From IMG/VR virus record IMGVR_UViG_3300033148_006061, positions 1 to 26,926 of that record: a stretch of 26,926 nt of DNA; one strand, written 5' to 3'. The stretch is from a virus. This document shows positions 3,170-26,548 of this stretch, in pieces. The first letter of the stretch is position 1; each line of letters opens with the position of its first letter. The notes beneath the pieces are model-generated. The model was given only the letters and a program-made list of their open reading frames with translations. It was not told where the DNA came from and did not search any database. The position numbers and the translations under genes are program-made.

Positions 3170-3805
3170 ATGTCGACTAAAGAAATGCTATCTTCAGCCG
3201 GCATCAAGGGAGGGCAAGCTCCGAAGCACCGGTGGACGGATGAGGAGCTGGAGATAGTCCGCCGTGATTACAGGGGCACTAATGCCAGCGCCCAGGATAT
3301 AGCCGACAGGCTCGGCGTTACGAAATGGACGGTCAAGGGGCAGGCTGCCAAGCTGGGAATACTTCAGCAGAAAAGCCCGGACTGGTCACCGAAAGAGCTA
3401 GAGCGGCTCCGGGATCTCATTCATAGGCATTCAGTGCCTCAGATAGCCAAGATGCTGCACCGGTCACCCAACGCGGTAAAAGTGAAAGCCACCAGGCTGA
3501 AGCTGGGGTTGCGTTGCAGGACTGACTGGTATACCAAGAGGGAAGTCTGTGAAATCCTGGGAGTTGACCATAAGAAGGTGCAGTCCTGGATTGACAGCGG
3601 TGCCCTGGTAGCTACCTGGCACAATGGGCATAGACCTCAACAGAATGGCATGGCCATGTGGCACATCACAACTGAAGCTCTCAGGAGCTTTATCATCAGA
3701 TACTCAGGAGAATTACTTGGAAGGAATGTTGATATTCAGCAAATAGTCTGGATCGTGGCCGGCTCTATGTCCACGTATCGAGAGCTGGCGGGAGGGAAGA
3801 AATGA
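3170..3805 (+). CDS. Multi-HTH DNA-binding protein (Myb/SANT-like plus MerR-like helix-turn-helix)
   Basis: A 211-residue protein. The start at 3170 is chosen because AAGGAG lies 6 bases upstream; the frame stays open to 3107 but without a good site. Three DNA-binding units can be seen. Two tandem Myb/SANT-like repeats lie at residues about 19-65 (WTDEELEIVRRDY...AQDIADRLGVTKWTVKGQA) and 70-116 (WSPKELERLRDLI...VPQIAKMLHRSPNAVKVKA). An excisionase/MerR-like helix-turn-helix lies near 121-155 (WYTKREVCEILGVDHKKVQSWIDSGAL). Such proteins are common regulators in phages and mobile elements. It is the first of six genes that overlap at start/stop junctions, so it probably opens a coupled cassette. 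Confidence 0.72.
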   Translation: MSTKEMLSSAGIKGGQAPKHRWTDEELEIVRRDYRGTNASAQDIADRLGVTKWTVKGQAAKLGILQQKSPDWSPKELERLRDLIHRHSVPQIAKMLHRSPNAVKVKATRLKLGLRCRTDWYTKREVCEILGVDHKKVQSWIDSGALVATWHNGHRPQQNGMAMWHITTEALRSFIIRYSGELLGRNVDIQQIVWIVAGSMSTYRELAGGKK

Positions 3806-5501: not shown

Positions 5502-5734
5502 ACCTCACCAGCTGCATTAAAGGCGGAGATGCTCAGGGGAGACCCGGCTGGCTGATCCAGTTCCGGTATGATGCCGAGTTCGTGGAGAAGCTGAAGGAGA
5601 CCATAGACCACCGGCACCGGGAGTGGCGGCCGGACACCAAGACCTGGTGGATAGATGAAGTGTACGAGCCGGAGCTAGACCAGCTCTTCAATAACTGGTA
5701 CGCCCTGGCGAAGATGCAGGGGAACTTGTTGTGA
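5498..5734 (+). CDS. Stand-alone HARP-like mini-protein
   Basis: A 78-residue protein. TAGGAGG ends 6 bases before the ATG, which overlaps the previous stop as ATGA. The frame is open for 20 codons upstream, but the ribosome-binding site fixes this start. The pattern GWLIQFRYDAEFVEKLK...REWRPDTKTWWIDEVYEPEL resembles the short domain found just before many SNF2-type helicases (HARP-like), where a x-F-x-Y-x-x-x-L-V segment precedes R-x-W-x-x-x-x-x-x-W. In helicases this module binds DNA or contacts the motor. Here it stands alone, with no helicase in the window. Confidence 0.6.
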   Translation: MNLTSCIKGGDAQGRPGWLIQFRYDAEFVEKLKETIDHRHREWRPDTKTWWIDEVYEPELDQLFNNWYALAKMQGNLL

Positions 5735-5775
5735 GGGGACGATTCTGTGTGCAAAGAAATATAGAGGAATTTTGA

Positions 5776-9249: not shown

Positions 9250-9291
9250 AGCATGATTAACAAGTAAATACACGCTGACTCAGGAAATGAG

Positions 9292-9342
9292 AGGCGAAGT
9301 CTGTGAGAGCCGTAGAGGCTCCGGGCTTCGCCTTTTTGTTTT
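9292..9342 (+). terminator. Intrinsic terminator closing the replication/accessory operon
   Basis: AGGCGAAG (9292-9299) pairs with CTTCGCCT (9326-9333), with an inner GAGCC/GGCTC stem, followed by TTTTTGTTTT. It lies between the 9037 gene and the LexA-like gene. It separates transcription of the replication block from the regulators. Confidence 0.85.
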
Positions 9343-9354
9343 AGGGAGGTGACC

Positions 9355-9681
9355 ATGAGCCAAGAGAATACGACCGGTGAGGATAGGATGATAAAGACCG
9401 TCTTCTGCGTGAGCGATAACCTGAACGATCGGGACTGGAGCATCTTCGACTTCATTGAGAGGTTCAGCCGAGAGAAGGGATACTCACCTAACCGGCGAGA
9501 GATCATGAAGGGCGCCGGTGTCTCTTCCTCAACCCAGGTAAGCAGTTCCCTCCGGAAGCTCCGGGATGCCCGGGTACTGACTTATGTAGACGGGATATCC
9601 AGGAGCATATCGGTTGTCAGGGTGTCTCTCACCCCGAAAGGAATGGCCGCAGCGAGAGAGCTTGATGGAGAAAGACAGTAG
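9355..9681 (+). CDS. LexA DNA-binding-domain-only regulator
   Basis: A 108-residue protein. Residues about 26-92 match the LexA N-terminal winged helix (DWSIFDFIERFSREKGYSPNRREIMKGAGVSSSTQVSSSLRKLRDARVL). There is no S24 peptidase domain, so it cannot cleave itself in the way LexA and CI do. AGGGAGG lies 5 bases upstream of the ATG. The only candidate promoter signals lie at or before the terminator, so it may depend on readthrough. It may be a phage repressor or a decoy for host SOS operators. Confidence 0.72.
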   Translation: MSQENTTGEDRMIKTVFCVSDNLNDRDWSIFDFIERFSREKGYSPNRREIMKGAGVSSSTQVSSSLRKLRDARVLTYVDGISRSISVVRVSLTPKGMAAARELDGERQ

Positions 9682-9910
9682 ACCGGAGATTGTTCACTAC
9701 AAGGACGAGGGTTGCGAGCTGGCGCCGTCCTGTCTGGAGTGCCCTTTTGACAGGTGCGTCCTGGAAGAAGGCGGCGTGGCCAGTGCGCGGAAGAGGGAGC
9801 GTAATCAGGAGATAAAGGAGTTAGCTAATCAGGGAGTAACAGTGCCGGAGCTGGCCGAGAGGTATGGAGTCAGCCTCCGGACGATACAGCGAATCTTGAG
9901 CAGCAAATGA
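9665..9910 (+). CDS. Cys-cluster helix-turn-helix protein
   Basis: An 81-residue protein. The N-terminal half has CELAPSCLECPFDRC (cysteines 18, 24, 27 and 32), a pattern typical of small mobile-element proteins in anaerobes. The C-terminal half is a helix-turn-helix (NQEIKELANQGVTVPELAERYGVSLRTIQRILS). It overlaps the LexA-like gene by 17 bases; the start at 9665 lacks a strong ribosome-binding site, and the frame is open to 9614. It is a likely transcription regulator. Confidence 0.68.
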   Translation: MEKDSRPEIVHYKDEGCELAPSCLECPFDRCVLEEGGVASARKRERNQEIKELANQGVTVPELAERYGVSLRTIQRILSSK

Positions 9911-10302
9911 GCAGTGGTTACAGTATCGCGTTGATAAGAAAGTTACTGGCCAGCTATGCCGCCCTGGAAGCCGGGCAACTACCGGTTTCAGACAGCGGCT
10001 ATGCTGAGTACTGGGGCCCGCGGATGACCAGGCGCGGCAGCTCGCGGTCGCCGTTTGAGATGGCAGTGCTCTTAAAGGCTGATATTGATAGGGCGATACA
10101 GCAGCTGTCTCCGGAGCAGAAGTTCGTGCTGCTTGCTGTCAACATCGATGAGCGGAGCCCCGGGGATTGCGCATACTGGCTGGGGAAGACGGTAAGCCAG
10201 GTCATGGCGATAGAGGATAGGGCTGTCTACCGTATGGCCGGCATCCTGAGCGGGAAGACATGGGGAGGTACCCGGCCCGGCGCCGGCAGGAAATCAAGTT
10301 GA
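9907..10302 (+). CDS. Sigma-70 region 4-like phage regulator (possible late activator)
   Basis: A 131-residue protein with an ATGA start overlap. Residues about 50-118 (FEMAVLLKADIDRAIQQLSPEQKFVLLAVNIDERSPGDCAYWLGKTVSQVMAIEDRAVYRM) have the look of sigma-70 region 4 or of the ArpU/RinA-type late regulators of Gram-positive phages. The tail TWGGTRPGAGRK is a basic motif often found at the start of terminase small subunits. It lies directly before the promoter and leader of the packaging genes, the position where late activators are encoded. The assignment rests on pattern and position. Confidence 0.6.
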   Translation: MSSGYSIALIRKLLASYAALEAGQLPVSDSGYAEYWGPRMTRRGSSRSPFEMAVLLKADIDRAIQQLSPEQKFVLLAVNIDERSPGDCAYWLGKTVSQVMAIEDRAVYRMAGILSGKTWGGTRPGAGRKSS

Positions 10303-10329
10303 AGCTAACGTTTTTCAAGTTGGAAAATG

Positions 10330-10357
10330 CTGTCTGAGGCTAATTCGTGCCTGACAG
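10330..10357. promoter_or_regulatory. Inverted repeat just upstream of the -35 box
   Basis: CTGTC (10330-10334) and GACAG (10353-10357) form the outer arms, and GGC (10338-10340) and GCC (10349-10351) the inner arms, around an AT-rich centre. It ends 6 bases before the -35 box. The location suits an activator or repressor site. There is no T-tract, so it is not a terminator. Confidence 0.45.
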
Positions 10358-10363
10358 TGGGGG

Positions 10364-10390
10364 TTGACACCTCAGAATCGATGGTATAAT
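10364..10390 (+). promoter_or_regulatory. Sigma-70 promoter with extended -10
   Basis: TTGACA at 10364-10369 and TATAAT at 10385-10390 are both perfect, with TG at 10382-10383 giving an extended -10 (TGGTATAAT). The spacer is 15 bp, shorter than the usual 17; TAATTA at 10387 with a 17-bp spacer is the alternative. Transcription should begin near 10397. It is the clearest promoter in the window and it faces the packaging genes. Confidence 0.75.
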
Positions 10391-10396
10391 TAATAA

Positions 10397-10514
10397 CAGA
10401 TGGAGTGTGAAGCGGCTCCATCGGACGTAGCTTGAGGGGCGCTGGACTGGAAGGTCGAACCAGGAAGGCGCCCAATGTTATTTAGAGCTCGGGTAATCCC
10501 CGGGCTTTTTATTT
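10397..10514 (+). ncRNA. Structured leader or small RNA ahead of the packaging genes
   Basis: Between the promoter and the 10485-10514 terminator lies about 118 nt with no plausible reading frame. Hairpin 1 is GATGGAG (10399-10405) with CTCCATC (10416-10422). Hairpin 2 is GGGCGC (10437-10442) with GCGCCC (10468-10473) and an inner CTGG (10447-10450) with CCAG (10460-10463). These are separated by a symmetric 4x4 internal loop, TGGA facing GAAG, which could form tandem G-A pairs. The third hairpin is the terminator. It could act as a free small RNA, as an attenuating leader, or as an antitermination site of the put or Q type. I do not recognise a named RNA family. Confidence 0.6.
10485..10514 (+). 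terminator. Intrinsic terminator directly before the ParB-methyltransferase ribosome-binding site
   Basis: GCTCGGG (10487-10493) pairs with CCCGGGC (10499-10505) around a five-base loop, with one T-G pair, followed by TTTTTATTT. The Shine-Dalgarno GGGAGG of the next gene begins right after the T-tract, so expression of the packaging operon from the upstream promoter requires readthrough. Confidence 0.8.
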
Positions 10515-10523
10515 GGGAGGGAC

Positions 10524-11820
10524 ATGGAGAATATCGCTGAAGGACTGGCACCCCTGGCGGTGGATATCGATTCCGTCCGGGAGGACCCGCAGAACGCTAG
10601 GAAGCATTCATCCCGCAACCTGGCTGCTATCAAGAAGAGCCTCCGGACTTATGGCCAGAGAAAGCCTATCGTCGTCAACAGCGAGACGGGCATCATCGAG
10701 GCCGGCAACGGGCTATGGAGAGCGGCGAAGGCACTGGGATGGACACGGGTAGCGGCCGCCATGGTGAAGGATGACCCAGCCACCGCCAAGGGTTATGCAC
10801 TGATGGATAACCAGTCCGCGCTGCTGGCCGACTGGGATATGCCAGTCCTCAGTGAATTGTTAAAGGAACTCGATGCCGGCGTCTTCGATATGGAGCTTAC
10901 CGGGTTTAGTGAGAGAGAGATTGAGAACCTGTTAGCTGAGATACCGGAGCCAACGGTCGGCTTAATTGATGATGACGAAGTACCGGAGGGGGAGGATACG
11001 GCCTGCAAGTTCGGGGACCTGTGGCAGCTGGGGGATCACCGCCTACTATGCGGTGACTCGGCGCAGCGTGCCGATATCCAGAAGCTGATGGGCGGTGCCC
11101 TGGCAGACCTGGTAATCACCGACCCGCCCTATAACGTGAACTATAAATCCAAGGCCGGCAATACTTACACCGGTGGCAAATACGGCGGCAAGCTGAAGGC
11201 CTTTGAGGATGACAAGACCCTGGCTGGCTATCATTACTTTCTTACCGCGGTCATCGAGAACATCTTCAACTTCACCGCGGAGAAGGCGCCGGTCTATATG
11301 TGGTACCCGGTACAGTATCCAGCCATCTATTATCTGGCTGAAAGACAACATTGTCTTCGGCTACGGTACCTATCACAAGTGTTACGAGGCGGCAGCCTAT
11401 TGCTGGAAGAATGGCAAGAAGCCCTACGAGAACAAGAAGGCCACCGCCAAGGAGCGTGATGTCTGGATGGACCGCATGACCTTCATGGATTACCTGGACG
11501 TGTGGTACGTGCCCCGGGATGTCCGCAATGAGTATGTGCATCCTACTCAGAAGCCGGTGGCCCTGACCGAGCGGATGCTGAGGAATAACAGCAAGGAAGG
11601 TGACCGGGTCCTGGATACATTCGGCGGGTCCGGCAGCGTGCTCATCGGCTGTGAAAAGATGAGCCGGCGGTGCTACATGATGGAACTCGACCCCCACTAT
11701 TGCGACGTCATCATCAACAGGTGGCAAAAGTACACCGGTAAAAAAGCGATCAGGATCAATAGTGGGCAGGAAGACGAAACTAAATCCGCAGCTGCAGGAG
11801 CGAATATGCCAGCTGATTAG
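10524..11820 (+). pseudogene. ParB domain/beta-class DNA methyltransferase, frameshifted
   Basis: The first part (10524 to about 11315) encodes a ParB-like domain (residues about 12-110, with EAGNGLWRAAKALG) and the start of an N6-adenine or N4-cytosine methyltransferase with DPPY at residues 200-203. The rest, in the +1 frame from about 11326 (IIWLKDNIVFGYG), supplies HPTQKPVALTERML and the SAM-binding DTFGGSGSV box. The DPPY-before-FGGSG order is that of the beta class. The two halves meet near 11310-11326. Relatives usually have some 20 residues between the YMW strand and the IIW strand, and here there are about eight, so a small deletion of a length not divisible by three is likely. The first frame alone would give a 311-residue protein without the SAM site. 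Such fusions are common next to phage terminases. Confidence 0.8.
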
Positions 11821-12202
11821 CGCCGGCAATTACATCAAGACGGCGTGTCAGGCTGTCGGTATCAGCGAGCAGACTTATATCAATTGGATGAAGCGGGGAG
11901 AGAAGAGCCAGAAAGGCTTATATTTTGAGTTTTTTGAGTCGGTAAAAAAGGCCGAGGCTCAGTCGATAGCCCGCAATGTCGCCGTCATCCAGTCCGCCGC
12001 CAAGGATACCTGGCAGGCAGCTGCCTGGTGGCTGGAGCGGAAACACCCGCAGGACTGGGGGAAGAAGGAGCGGCACGAGCATGTCGGCAAGAACGGAGAG
12101 CCTATCCAGCTGGATGTAGACCCCAAGGACAAGCTGATGTCCAAGCTACAGAATATCGCTCGGAACGAGAGCATCGCCGCGGGGGATGATAATGAACCCT
12201 AA
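11762..12202 (+). CDS. Terminase small-subunit-like HTH protein 1
   Basis: A 146-residue protein that starts at GTG 11762, with AGGA 7 bases upstream, and overlaps the methyltransferase frame by 59 bases. Residues about 6-42 form a helix-turn-helix (LNPQLQERICQLISAGNYIKTACQAVGISEQTYINWMKRGE). The following helices (FFESVKKAEAQSIARNVAVIQ, then WQAAAWWLERKHPQDWG) are the usual layout of phage terminase small subunits that recognise the packaging site. The C-terminus (NGEPIQLDVDPKDKLMSKLQN) matches that of the second small-subunit-like gene at 12368. Confidence 0.7.
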   Translation: MGRKTKLNPQLQERICQLISAGNYIKTACQAVGISEQTYINWMKRGEKSQKGLYFEFFESVKKAEAQSIARNVAVIQSAAKDTWQAAAWWLERKHPQDWGKKERHEHVGKNGEPIQLDVDPKDKLMSKLQNIARNESIAAGDDNEP

Positions 12203-12423
12203 AAGTACGGATAGCGCAGTGTAAATTAAGATGCGAGTTCTGCCCGGCGCCCATCAAGACCGGGCATTCTTATGTATTCGTCCAGGTACGGCGTGGCCAG
12301 ACTATCCACCTGCGGAGGGCGCATCCCGAGTGTGCCGCCAGAGCCGTGTCGGAGACAGGTGATACTGATGGCTGCGAAGCTGACAACCAAACAATGCAAG
12401 GAATTATTTCTCAAGAAATATGA
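12196..12423 (+). pseudogene. Zinc-ribbon gene relic between the two small-subunit-like genes
   Basis: An open frame from 12196 to the stop at 12421 encodes a protein-like segment, KLRCEFCPAPIKTGHSYVFV followed by a stretch containing HLRRAHPECAARAVSETGD, with a C-x2-C...H..C zinc-site layout. The frame has no ATG, GTG or TTG before the ribbon. A start at 12192 (MNPKSTDSAV) lies one frame away and stops at 12222, so a single lost or gained base near 12222 would join them. Its 3' end overlaps the next gene. It may be a decayed gene or a sequencing error. Confidence 0.4.
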
Positions 12424-12826
12424 GTATTACGGTGCCGTCTGGCCGGCGTGCAGGGCGGCGGGTATCAAGAGCCGGAAGACGCCATATAACTGGTGCAAGT
12501 CCGATAAGGATTTCGCCGAGGCATTTGAGGAAATACAGTCAAGGGTAGAGGATGAGCTGGCGTCTCGCCTTATCCTGCATGCCAGGGGCCGGGCGAAGAT
12601 GGACGCCGACCAGATCAGGTCTTCTATCTTCACGCTGAAGGCACTGAACCCGTCCAAGTATGCCGAGAAATACCAGGTCGGAGGGAATAACGGCGGTCCG
12701 CTTGAGGTGGACGTAGATGTTAAAGGAAAACTCATTAGCCTACTCGATCGCCTTGCTGCCCGAGCAGGAGAGGCGGAAAGCAATACAGAATCTCAGCCAG
12801 AAGGAAGCGGAGGTCCTGCTTCATGA
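12368..12826 (+). CDS. Terminase small-subunit-like HTH protein 2
   Basis: A 152-residue protein starting MAAKLTTKQCKELFLKKY. The frame stays open to 12272, but the segment before 12368 belongs to the zinc-ribbon relic in another frame. Residues about 5-45 form a helix-turn-helix (YYGAVWPACRAAGIKSRKTPYNWCKSD). The middle helices and FTLKALNPSKYAEKYQ correspond to the WWLERKHPQDW segment of gene 11762, and NGGPLEVDVDVKGKLISLLD matches its C-terminus, so the two genes are paralogs. This copy lies directly against the large subunit, which makes it the better candidate for the working packaging subunit. Confidence 0.72.
   Translation: MAAKLTTKQCKELFLKKYEYYGAVWPACRAAGIKSRKTPYNWCKSDKDFAEAFEEIQSRVEDELASRLILHARGRAKMDADQIRSSIFTLKALNPSKYAEKYQVGGNNGGPLEVDVDVKGKLISLLDRLAARAGEAESNTESQPEGSGGPAS
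12405..12420. repeat. Dispersed 16-bp palindrome, copy 3
   Basis: TATTTCTCAAGAAATA, identical to the copy at 19948. It lies within codons 13-18 of the second small-subunit-like gene (LFLKKY) and just before the stop of the zinc-ribbon relic. Confidence 0.6.
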
Positions 12827-14072
12827 CTGGTCATTTTGGGCACGCCCTAACCAGATGCCCCCGGACTGGGAATGGTATATCTGGCTGCTGCTCAGCGGGC
12901 GCGGCGGTGGCAAGACACGGACCGGTGCCGAGCTGGTCAATCGGTGGGCACATGACTTCTCACCAATAGCACTTGTAGGTCAGACGAAGGGGGATGTCCG
13001 GGACACCATGGTGGAGGTCGGCGAGTCGGCGATCCTCAACGTTTCGCCGCCCTGGTTCATGCCGGAGTATGAACCTTCCAAGCGCCGGCTGACCTGGCCG
13101 AATGGCGCCATGGCGATCATCTACTCCGGAGACGAGCCGGATCAGCTCCGCGGTCCCCAGCATGCCAAGGCCTGGGTAGACGAGCTGGCCAAGTTTAAGT
13201 ATCCCCAGGAGACATGGGATAACCTGATGTTCGGCCTGCGCATTGGCGAGAAGCCGCAGGCCGTGGTTACTACGACACCGCGGCCGATACCAATAATCAA
13301 GACCTTGGTGCAGGATGTGAGGACAGCGGTGACCAGAGGGCATACCCTGGAAAACAGGGCTAATCTGGCGCCGGACTTTCTGAAGTATATCCTAAGTAGA
13401 TACGAGGGCACCCGGATAGGCTGGCAGGAGCTGGCAGGAGAGATACTGGAAGACAACCCGGATGCTCTTTGGAAGCGCAAGCAAATTGACGAGCTGAGGG
13501 TCAGGGAAGCTCCCGACCTCCTGCGCATAGTAGTAGGAGTAGACCCGGAGGCCAGCAACACGGAGACATCTTCCGAGACAGGGATTGTCGTCGCCGGCAT
13601 AGCCAACGTTAATGGATCCACTCACGGATATGTCCTGGATGACTTGACGGTTAAGGCCTCACCCGGCGGATGGGCGAGCGCCGCCATCACCGGCTTTTAC
13701 AAGTTCAGAGCGGACCGGGTCATCGGTGAGGTCAATAATGGCGGTGACATGGTCGAACATACGATAAACAGCGTAGATTCCAGAGTGCCTTTCAAGCAGG
13801 TTAGAGCCAGCCGGGGCAAGCTGGTCAGGGCGGAGCCGATATCGGCTCTATACGAGCAGGGCCGGGTGCACCACGTAGGTGTCTTCCCTGAGCTGGAAGA
13901 CCAGATGTGCGAATGGGTGCCCGGGGACAGGTCACCTGACCGCATGGACGCCCTGGTCTGGGCCCTGACGGAACTCTTTGAGCAGGGCGAGCCGGGCAAG
14001 GTGGAGAGCAGTGGCGCCGTTAAGGGTAAATCAGAGCTGGCCTTCGGAGGCATAAGGAGAAGGGACTTTTAA
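12717..14072 (+). CDS. Terminase large subunit
   Basis: A 451-residue protein. The family opening is present (LLPEQERRKAIQNL...LHDWSFWARPNQMPP). The ATPase has Walker A at 61-67 (GRGGGKT, K66), Walker B at 153-156 (WVDE) and the coupling motif VVTTTPRP at 183-190. The nuclease half has D276 in VVGVDPEAS and D411 in SPDRMDALVWAL as metal ligands. It cuts and pumps DNA into the prohead with the small subunit and the portal. The start at 12717 overlaps the small-subunit-like gene by 110 bases, with GAGGTGG upstream. Starting at TTG 12753 would also keep all motifs. Confidence 0.93.
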   Translation: MLKENSLAYSIALLPEQERRKAIQNLSQKEAEVLLHDWSFWARPNQMPPDWEWYIWLLLSGRGGGKTRTGAELVNRWAHDFSPIALVGQTKGDVRDTMVEVGESAILNVSPPWFMPEYEPSKRRLTWPNGAMAIIYSGDEPDQLRGPQHAKAWVDELAKFKYPQETWDNLMFGLRIGEKPQAVVTTTPRPIPIIKTLVQDVRTAVTRGHTLENRANLAPDFLKYILSRYEGTRIGWQELAGEILEDNPDALWKRKQIDELRVREAPDLLRIVVGVDPEASNTETSSETGIVVAGIANVNGSTHGYVLDDLTVKASPGGWASAAITGFYKFRADRVIGEVNNGGDMVEHTINSVDSRVPFKQVRASRGKLVRAEPISALYEQGRVHHVGVFPELEDQMCEWVPGDRSPDRMDALVWALTELFEQGEPGKVESSGAVKGKSELAFGGIRRRDF

Positions 14073-24309: not shown

Positions 24310-24660
24310 ATGGGACATTTTGTTTATGAGGAAGTAGACCGTATTAAGCTGGGAGACGAGGACTGGGTCGATGTTAAGCGGCGCATGTCCTACGGAGACC
24401 ATCAGAAGCTGGTAGCCGCCTACATGCAGCTGCAGCAGCAACTGAAGCCAGGGCAGGTCAAGAACGTTCCCAATGTCGAGGTGAACCTGCAGACGGGGAA
24501 TATCATGCTGCTGTTGATTAACATTAAGGCATGGAGCCTGAAAGATAAAGATGGCAAGATAGCGCCTGTGAACGAGGAGTTTATCCGGCAGCTGGACATC
24601 AACACGGCCGACAAGATCATCGAAGCTATCAATAAGCGGAACCCATCCCCAAAAGTCTAG
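24310..24660 (+). CDS. Tail assembly chaperone, short form (lambda G-like)
   Basis: A 116-residue protein in the place of lambda G, between tube and tape measure. The N-terminus (FVYEEVDRIKLGDEDWVDVKRRMSYGDHQKLVAAYMQLQ) is typical of these chaperones, followed by helices (MLLLINIKAWSLKDKDGK, TADKIIEAINKR). It binds the tape measure during tail assembly. The stop TAG (24658) follows a slippery CCCAAAA, so most ribosomes would make this form and some the longer one. Confidence 0.78.
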   Translation: MGHFVYEEVDRIKLGDEDWVDVKRRMSYGDHQKLVAAYMQLQQQLKPGQVKNVPNVEVNLQTGNIMLLLINIKAWSLKDKDGKIAPVNEEFIRQLDINTADKIIEAINKRNPSPKV

Positions 24661-24884
24661 ATTTCGATGACGACCTGTGGGCATTTTTTGAAGCCAGTGA
24701 CCAGGCAGAGAAAGAGATAGAATCCAAGCCTCACCAAGTGCCCAAGGCGTATATCGAATACATGGTGATGAAGGAGATGGGATGGAGCTACCAGGACCTG
24801 CAGGAATGTCCTGCTGAAATGGTGGCCAACATCATTCGGTACTTGAACACCGAGGCTAAATACTATAAACAGAGGTCGAAATAA
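24310..24884 (+). CDS. Tail assembly chaperone, long frameshift form (lambda GT-like)
   Basis: The -1 frame opens at 24636 (stop at 24633), only 12 bases before the slippery site, and runs to TAA at 24882. It has no start codon of its own until deep inside the domain. Slipping at 24648-24654 fuses 115 residues of the short chaperone to 76 more (SLDFDDDLWAFFEASD...EYMVMKEMGWSYQDLQECP...YYKQRSK), about 191 in all. The extension (MKEMGWSYQDLQECPAEMV) is of the T-domain type that recruits the tape measure, whose gene begins on its stop. Confidence 0.75.
24648..24654 (+). promoter_or_regulatory. Programmed -1 frameshift site CCCAAAA
   Basis: In the chaperone frame the bases read C CCA AAA, a perfect X XXY YYZ heptamer, two codons before the TAG. 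After a one-base slip the ribosome continues with AGT CTA GAT into the open -1 frame. This is the place and form of the frameshift used in lambda G/GT and many other tailed phages. Confidence 0.75.
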
Positions 24885-26548
24885 TGCCAGATGCGAAAGC
24901 AGAAATTGCAGTTTTGGTGAGCGCAAAAGATGAAGCCAGCCGGCAGCTCAAAGGCATAACTGGGCAAATCCAGAACATGTCCAAGCAATTTAAGATTGCC
25001 GGCGGTATTATGATGGGCGCTGGCGCTGGTATCACCGCGGCACTGGGCTCCGCCATGAAAGCAGCCGCCGAGGAAGAGGCTGGCATTGTCAGGCTTTCTA
25101 CCGCCATGCATAACATGGGCATCGAGTATGACCAGGTGAAGGATAGCCTGGAGGGGTGGATTGATGCGCAACAGCAGAAGACAGCTATAGCGGATGATGA
25201 ACAGAGGGAATCACTAGCCCAGCTTATCACTATGACGGATAACTTAGCAGAAGCACAAGATCTATTAACGGTGGCCATGGACATGTCAGCAGCCAGGGGT
25301 GAAGACCTTTCCAGTGCTACGAGCAAGTTGGGTTACGCCCTAAGTGGTAATTGGGGCATGGTGGAAAGAATGATACCTGCCCTTAAGGCGGCGCAAACGG
25401 AAGAAGAAAAGTGGATGATGCTCAGGCAGATGTTCGCTGGCCAGGCTGAGGCATACGGGCAGACGATGGCGGGGCAAATGAAGCTAATGCAGCACAATCT
25501 CAGCGACTTGAAGGAGAGTATAGGTGCAGTAGTATCTGAGGCAGTGGCGCCAGCAATTGGGAGGCTCAGTGATTTCATCAGGAATCTAAAAGAGACCAAC
25601 CCTGAACTACTAAGAATGGGCACAATGGGAGCTATGGCAGGGGCGGGGTTGTTGACAGTCGGGGGCGGGCTATTGTTGGCGCTTGGTTTTCTACCACAAG
25701 CGATTGATGGTATTAAAAGGTTGAACATAATGTTGACTACTACACGTACGGTAGCATTTGGCGTGCAGACATCCATAAGATCAATGGCTGCTGCCATGTT
25801 CGCACTGGGCTATATAGCCATTTATATCGCCTCGGCAATCCGTGTACAAGCTCTGCCCTCTTTTGAAGATATGGGCGATACCATCAAAGAGGCCATCAAT
25901 CCTCTTATGGCTTGGGTCGATGGTTTATTCGAAGGAGAGGAAAGGCTGAAGGAATATACTGATGCTGTACTACCGGCAATAGATGCCATCGACAAAATGA
26001 AGAAGGCACTGGCTATATCCGAGGAGACGATTGAAGGAGTTGTCTACCAGACTATACTCTATTCCGAGGCCGAGATAGAAGCGGCCTCAGCATCGGGACT
26101 TCTTGTTACCAGGCTGGATAGTGTGACCGATGCAATAAAAGCCCAGGGGGATGAGCAGGAACGGCTGAACTACGAAATGGAGAGAGGGCTGGCATTGGCC
26201 ATGGCTTACAGTAATGCTCCATCCAAGGAGCAGGCGCAGGACTTTGCTAAATATTATATTGCGCACATGGGAGAGGTAGAGCTGGCAAGATACCCGTTCG
26301 TTAGCCAGTCTGCGCTTGATGCCATCGCCGGGATGCTATCTTTCGAACATGGGGGAGTAGTGCCCGGCCCTATCGGTCAACCCGTACCTATTATGGCACA
26401 TGGCGGGGAGATGTTCCTTGGAGCTTCACGAGGAGGTAGTCGTGCTCCAATCCAAAACATCATTCAGATTTATATTGATGGAAGAGAAGTCAGTGAAAGC
26501 GTGATAGACCACCTCACGGAAAAAGTTAAGCTGCAGGGAGGATTATAA
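24884..26548 (+). CDS. Tail tape measure protein
   Basis: A 554-residue protein. The N-terminus (AEIAVLVSAKDEASRQLKGITGQI) is the usual tape-measure opening. Long helical stretches follow with alternating charges and A/M-rich faces, and two hydrophobic segments at about 245-268 (GAMAGAGLLTVGGGLLLALGFL) and 303-320 (MFALGYIAIYIASAI). The C-terminal LSFEHGGVVPGPIGQPVPIMAHGGEMF is typical of tape-measure ends. The tape length sets the tail length; with the usual 0.15 nm per residue, about 80 nm. The gene is more AT-rich than the head block. Confidence 0.88.
   Translation: MPDAKAEIAVLVSAKDEASRQLKGITGQIQNMSKQFKIAGGIMMGAGAGITAALGSAMKAAAEEEAGIVRLSTAMHNMGIEYDQVKDSLEGWIDAQQQKTAIADDEQRESLAQLITMTDNLAEAQDLLTVAMDMSAARGEDLSSATSKLGYALSGNWGMVERMIPALKAAQTEEEKWMMLRQMFAGQAEAYGQTMAGQMKLMQHNLSDLKESIGAVVSEAVAPAIGRLSDFIRNLKETNPELLRMGTMGAMAGAGLLTVGGGLLLALGFLPQAIDGIKRLNIMLTTTRTVAFGVQTSIRSMAAAMFALGYIAIYIASAIRVQALPSFEDMGDTIKEAINPLMAWVDGLFEGEERLKEYTDAVLPAIDAIDKMKKALAISEETIEGVVYQTILYSEAEIEAASASGLLVTRLDSVTDAIKAQGDEQERLNYEMERGLALAMAYSNAPSKEQAQDFAKYYIAHMGEVELARYPFVSQSALDAIAGMLSFEHGGVVPGPIGQPVPIMAHGGEMFLGASRGGSRAPIQNIIQIYIDGREVSESVIDHLTEKVKLQGGL

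Follow-up and report, generated by a model that had tools for sequence, protein, structure and literature searches.

The window analyzed here is the whole of IMG/VR virus record IMGVR_UViG_3300033148_006061, a stretch of 26,926 bases. At 10303-10523 it contains a gap between a small regulator gene and a run of late genes, and within this gap lie a candidate promoter, two hairpins and an intrinsic terminator (Table 1). A preliminary description had called this gap the longest in the window. It is among the longest but not clearly so, the open reading frame (ORF) list having slightly longer ones at 5502-5775 and 24661-24883. The latter, ahead of a tape-measure-like gene, seems to be filled by a second-frame extension of ORF 24310-24660; the layout of 24310-24885 fits a frameshifted tail assembly chaperone.

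The genes that follow the gap had been described as packaging genes. Terminase genes are indeed present, but a ParB-domain methyltransferase comes first; past the terminases are a Mu/P23-45-like portal gene and then further structural genes. The window ParB-methyltransferase is divided between ORFs 10524-11459 and 11203-11820, which overlap and are read in different frames, while its counterparts in three other viral contigs (L002, L004, and L058) are single ORFs of 424 to 429 amino acids. The split could reflect a frameshift, a pseudogene or an assembly error.

Table 1. Features of the regulator gene, the gap and the first late genes, in window coordinates.
Feature	Position	Strand	Basis
131-amino acid regulator, candidate Q-like late antiterminator	9907-10302	+	Predicted fold, position
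Inverted repeat CTGTCTGAGGC-N8-GCCTGACAG, directly upstream of -35	10330-10357		Sequence; hairpin when folded
-35 TTGACA	10364-10369	+	Sequence, perfect hexamer
-10 TATAAT, extended (TGG-TATAAT)	10385-10390	+	Sequence, perfect hexamer
Candidate late promoter TTGACA-N15-TATAAT, extended -10 TGG	10364-10390	+	Sequence and scan
Predicted terminated leader RNA, ~118 nt	10397-10514	+	Inferred from promoter and terminator positions
Hairpin 1, 8 bp, 8-nt loop, at predicted 5' end	10399-10422	+	Folding
Hairpin 2, symmetric 3x3 internal loop GGA/GAA	10437-10473	+	Folding
Intrinsic terminator, tR'-like, 10-bp stem, 5-nt loop	10484-10508, T-rich tail to 10514	+	Sequence, folding
First late gene: ParB_N domain and N-terminal part of DNA methyltransferase	10524-11459	+	
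Methyltransferase continuation, other frame	11203-11820	+	
Terminase small subunit candidate genes	11762-12202, 12272-12826	+	
Terminase large subunit gene	12717-14072	+	

Promoter, leader RNA and terminator

The perfect -35 and extended, perfect -10 reported for the gap are both present. Their spacer is 15 bp rather than the optimal 17, which is why a consensus scanner missed the promoter. In our own scan, an extended -10 earns a bonus and a site scoring at least 11 of 14 counts as strong. The promoter is the sole plus-strand site in the window at or above this score, and the scan found no second strong plus-strand promoter in the window for the 16 kb of late genes. The terminator lies 100 nt downstream, where shuffling of the window alone leads one to expect 0.05 such pairs. 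The inverted repeat just upstream of the -35, absent from the preliminary description, is a possible operator; we saw no counterpart in L004, the closest relative.

Folding recovers both hairpins and the terminator as previously described, with GGA/GAA as the internal loop of hairpin 2. The 124-nt leader is considerably more stable than its dinucleotide shuffles (-51.4 kcal/mol versus -38.0 ± 3.5; z = -3.85), with none of 200 shuffles as stable. The terminator lies close to the next gene, as stated earlier, its T-rich tract ending at 10514 and the start codon being at 10524. An attenuator or riboswitch was considered and rejected: in the predicted fold, the terminator is independent of other pairings. 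Searches of the window and four relatives against Rfam 15 gave no match at the gathering score (best subthreshold E-value, 0.45), in agreement with the earlier statement that no named RNA family is recognizable.

In the available data, only the window has hairpins 1 and 2. The exact sequence of hairpin 1 has no match among the viral contigs, and hairpin 2 has no counterpart in L004, L058, or L077. In L077, a hairpin is found as far from the -10 as hairpin 1 is in the window, and in L058 that place is taken by the terminator itself. The predicted leaders of L004 (~50 nt) and L058 (~40 nt) contain neither hairpin. Since no relative carries the window hairpins, there is no covariation to count.

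Predicted fold of the regulator

None of the Pfam, PHROG, and NCBIfam models reaches its threshold with the product of the 9907 gene. The best weak family match is Sigma70_r4_2 (E-value, 0.003), and sigma-70 region 4 (PF08281) scores 17.6 and 18.9 bits, under the curated cut-off of 25.7. By sequence, the protein falls outside the Q families. PF03589 (Q21/Antiterm) gave no match in a Pfam scan at an E-value of 10 or in a six-frame search of the record, and neither PF06530 (Q82/Phage_antitermQ) nor PHROG 79 (Q-like) matched anywhere in the record. Among seven relatives, PHROG 79 matched one, and only at an E-value of 0.29. A PDB sequence profile search with four regulators was uninformative, returning only engineered repeat proteins and weak matches.

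The AlphaFold2 model (pLDDT 77.5) is all-helical, and its predicted similarity to sigma region 4 is clear despite the subthreshold sequence score. Foldseek placed sigma factors on top; isolated region 4 domains superpose at 1.1 Å over 59 to 64 residues, but all E-values were 0.001 or higher. In VIA-align, the match to Q21 in its loading complex (6p18_Q) has a Z score of 8.7 over 104 residues spanning 3-131, with an rmsd of 7.6 Å; this is the longest alignment listed for the model, and its Z score is tied with many sigma region 4 entries. Lambda Q is absent among the structures listed, which is uninformative either way. Viral structure matches include DUF1492 and “transcriptional activator” entries. 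The regulator of L058, which is of another type, gave a low-confidence model (pLDDT 60) whose best matches include sigma region 4 together with 6p18_Q, 6p1b, 6jny, 6p1c, and 6p1a. The Q21 entries align with this model over 83 to 86 residues at ~3 Å (6p18_Q: Z score 6.7, 83 residues, rmsd 2.9 Å).

Directly preceding the Q-like gene, 9614-9910 encodes a small protein with a Cys-rich motif, a resolvase-type helix-turn-helix and a weak match to PHROG 836 “late transcriptional activator”. We rejected it as the switch protein because L004 has a counterpart of 9907 but none of this gene in the corresponding position.

Recurrence of the layout in related viral contigs

The order of regulator gene, promoter and terminator is found in five lineages of uncultivated phages, with a promoter-terminator interval of ~10 to 95 nt. 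Contigs L004 and L005 have, at the same place, a gene whose product is 57 to 59% identical to that of 9907. In L004, the regulator is followed by the promoter TTGACATTTCAAAATCAGTGATATAAT (15-bp spacer, TGN), ~30 nt, the terminator AGCCCTGGCTTTCCCAGGGCTTTTTC and the ParB-methyltransferase. The two promoters agree to an unusual degree, with the 15-bp spacer, GGGG ahead of the -35, TCA-R-AATC in the spacer and TGN before TATAAT in common; the spacer core is TCAGAATC in the window and TCAAAATC in L004. The TCA-R-AATC element is limited to these two lineages, and is a candidate Q binding element between -35 and -10. When a degenerate form of the promoter was searched for in the viral contigs, the only relatives among the 37 matches were L004 and L005.

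The remaining three lineages encode the second type of regulator. L058, found by searching with the methyltransferase, has a different, distantly similar regulator at 154-681, followed by TTTGGTATAAT and, ~8 nt past this promoter, the terminator GCCGAATGG-CCATTCGGTTTTTT. L002, found via the window ParB protein, has a relative of the L058 regulator, then TTGACA-18-TATATT and two terminator hairpins. L077, found via these two second-type regulators, has a regulator, TTGACA-17-TAAAGT, a hairpin and a terminator, with a terminase small subunit gene 1.1 kb further on. The -10 is extended in L058 and L077 as well, and the ParB-methyltransferase follows the layout in all lineages but L077.

We counted as a pair any promoter no more than 160 nt ahead of a terminator. 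On both strands of the five lineages (the window, L004/L005, L058, L002, and L077; 62 kb) there are five such pairs, compared with a mean of 0.2 in dinucleotide shuffles (60 runs, maximum 3). Thirteen promoters passed the scan in these lineages; five are paired with a terminator, and all five pairs are directly behind a regulator gene. The control, 107 kb from other viral contigs, contains 15 promoters and 42 terminators but no such pair. When tried on known Q systems, the scan misses lambda's own pR'-tR' and, after HK022 Q, detects the terminator only, so that it is not calibrated on such systems. A negative scan result would therefore mean little, and we use only the positives, whose excess stands. 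L078 and L079 have relatives of the regulator and no adjoining promoter-terminator pair. Searches with tblastn for relatives of the 9907, L077, and L058 regulators gave no match in the phage collection, and regulator relatives were absent from the genome contigs as well.

Two further observations concern similar elements elsewhere. By eye, three unrelated viral contigs (L029, 1039-1160; L030, 9545-9660; L037, minus strand, 1367-1393) have a TTGACA-15-TGNTATAAT promoter and then a terminator-like hairpin, which in L037 precede a small protein reading like a terminase small subunit. In addition, the regulator block in the window, L002, and L004 is preceded by a bipartite hairpin (9291-9334, 2733-2768, and 3532-3575, respectively) that is strong and terminator-like and has a T tract. 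Its outer stem, AGGCGA/TCGCCT, is kept, and its inner stem differs in sequence and still pairs. Transcription may already terminate once at this hairpin, in the manner of a two-step antitermination cascade.

A candidate late switch and the alternatives

We consider it likely that the window carries a late switch of the lambda Q/pR'/tR' kind, with a Q-like protein that has gone unrecognized. The position of the regulator gene, a promoter that looks self-sufficient and a terminator ahead of the first late gene together lead us to argue for antitermination, that is, that initiation would be constitutive and that the regulator would set the read-through. Given the consensus hexamers and extended -10, host RNA polymerase would read the promoter unaided, and by default transcription would end at the terminator, leaving the ~118-nt leader RNA that is expected as a by-product of the switch. 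As the 9907 product accumulates, it would bind DNA in or near the promoter via its predicted sigma region 4-like helix-turn-helix and load onto RNA polymerase, enabling it to read through this terminator and those further on. Transcription would then extend over the genes for the methyltransferase, terminase, portal, and tail, from 10524 to the end of the window. A late leader needing antitermination, as at pR'-tR' with Q, had been among the options offered in the preliminary description; it is well supported by the recurrence in five lineages and by the 9907 product, singled out in that description, whose predicted fold resembles sigma region 4 and Q21.

In the lambda Q/pR'/tR' system, the gene for Q lies immediately ahead of pR', a late promoter of the constitutive type with a terminated leader, the 6S RNA; the regulator and candidate late promoter of the window stand in this same order. 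The lambda late leader is 194 nt, and unlike the window, lambda has its lysis genes first. Lambda Q has a different fold outside the helix-turn-helix (PMC6606751). The phage 21 system of Q, pR'21, and tR'21 (6p18, 6jny) resembles the window in its order of regulator, late promoter, intrinsic terminator and late genes, and in its small regulator with a sigma region 4-like fold, which in the window is predicted. 21Q has a helix-turn-helix of this type, and its binding site lies between -35 and -10 (PMC6606751). In contrast to phage 21, the window regulator has no PF03589 match, the window promoter has no visible TGAGCA direct repeat, and the first late genes are the methyltransferase and terminase genes. 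AlpA, which acts at the Pseudomonas aeruginosa alpB promoter, is an antiterminator that also loads in the region separating -35 from -10 and enables read-through of a terminator close behind the promoter (PMC7969949); unlike the window regulator, it is predicted to have a winged-helix fold and belongs to a cell-death pathway encoded on the chromosome. Lambdoid Q proteins need a -10-like pause element. Within the first transcribed bases, as placed by predicted start sites, we find weak candidates in the window and L004 and better ones in L058 (GATAAT) and L002 (TACTAT). With no clear element in the window or L004, loading may differ from the lambdoid picture. This lack counts against the Q reading, as do the missing Q family match of the regulator, the high rmsd and tied Z score of its 6p18 alignment, and the regulators of L078 and L079 that have no pair beside them.

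Alternatively, the 9907 product could be a RinA/ArpU-type activator of initiation at the late promoter, with the terminator merely shielding the late operon from upstream read-through. The sigma region 4 fold is common to plain phage activators, which counts against the Q reading, and the viral structure matches noted above include such entries; moreover, the 15-bp spacer is suboptimal, so the promoter might need help, and no pause element is seen. We nevertheless regard this reading as unlikely. Because the promoter is followed by the terminator in every one of the five lineages, an activator alone would only raise the amount of terminated RNA, and the model leaves the terminator unexplained. 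In L058, the terminated RNA would be ~40 nt, with the terminator almost at the start site, and in the window promoter both hexamers are already perfect and the -10 is extended.

The other readings place the function in the RNA itself. Its own promoter, stable fold (z = -3.85) and own terminator would suit a stand-alone small RNA of ~118 nt that targets host or phage RNAs in trans, and there is a precedent in StxS of Stx phages: this terminated pR' transcript is a working small RNA (PMC7873438) and, like the predicted window leader, a short by-product of a late antitermination switch. However, conservation does not extend to the body of the leader, with predicted termination after ~50 nt in L004 and ~40 nt in L058; hairpin 2 is without a counterpart, and Rfam gave no match. 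This makes a dedicated small RNA improbable, although such a role need not exclude the switch. Hairpins 1 and 2 might also act in cis, modifying RNA polymerase without a phage protein, since they form two stem-loops near the start spanning ~75 nt, as in HK022 putL (PMC9378689); put is a ~70-nt element with two stem-loops past a phage promoter. This suggestion, made in the preliminary description, is disfavored and in our view very improbable: the short leaders of L004 and L058 leave no room for such an element between promoter and terminator, both of these relatives lack it and keep the terminator, and HK022 put sits at early promoters, while the window promoter is a candidate late promoter.

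It is possible, if doubtful, that both regulator types (that of the window and L004, and that of L058, L002, and L077) form a new family of sigma region 4-like antiterminators in uncultivated phages, loading at the promoter without the sigma-dependent pause of lambdoid Q, and that the terminated leader is a functional RNA in some lineages. The late switch proposed here would be of a type already known from phages, in a group that has not been studied and with a regulator that escapes current family models. What is understood of Q-type antitermination comes from a small number of lambdoid phages. The layout of a regulator, a near-consensus promoter and an immediate terminator allows late-gene switches to be spotted from sequence alone, and also flags candidate new antiterminators in uncultivated phages that family models miss.
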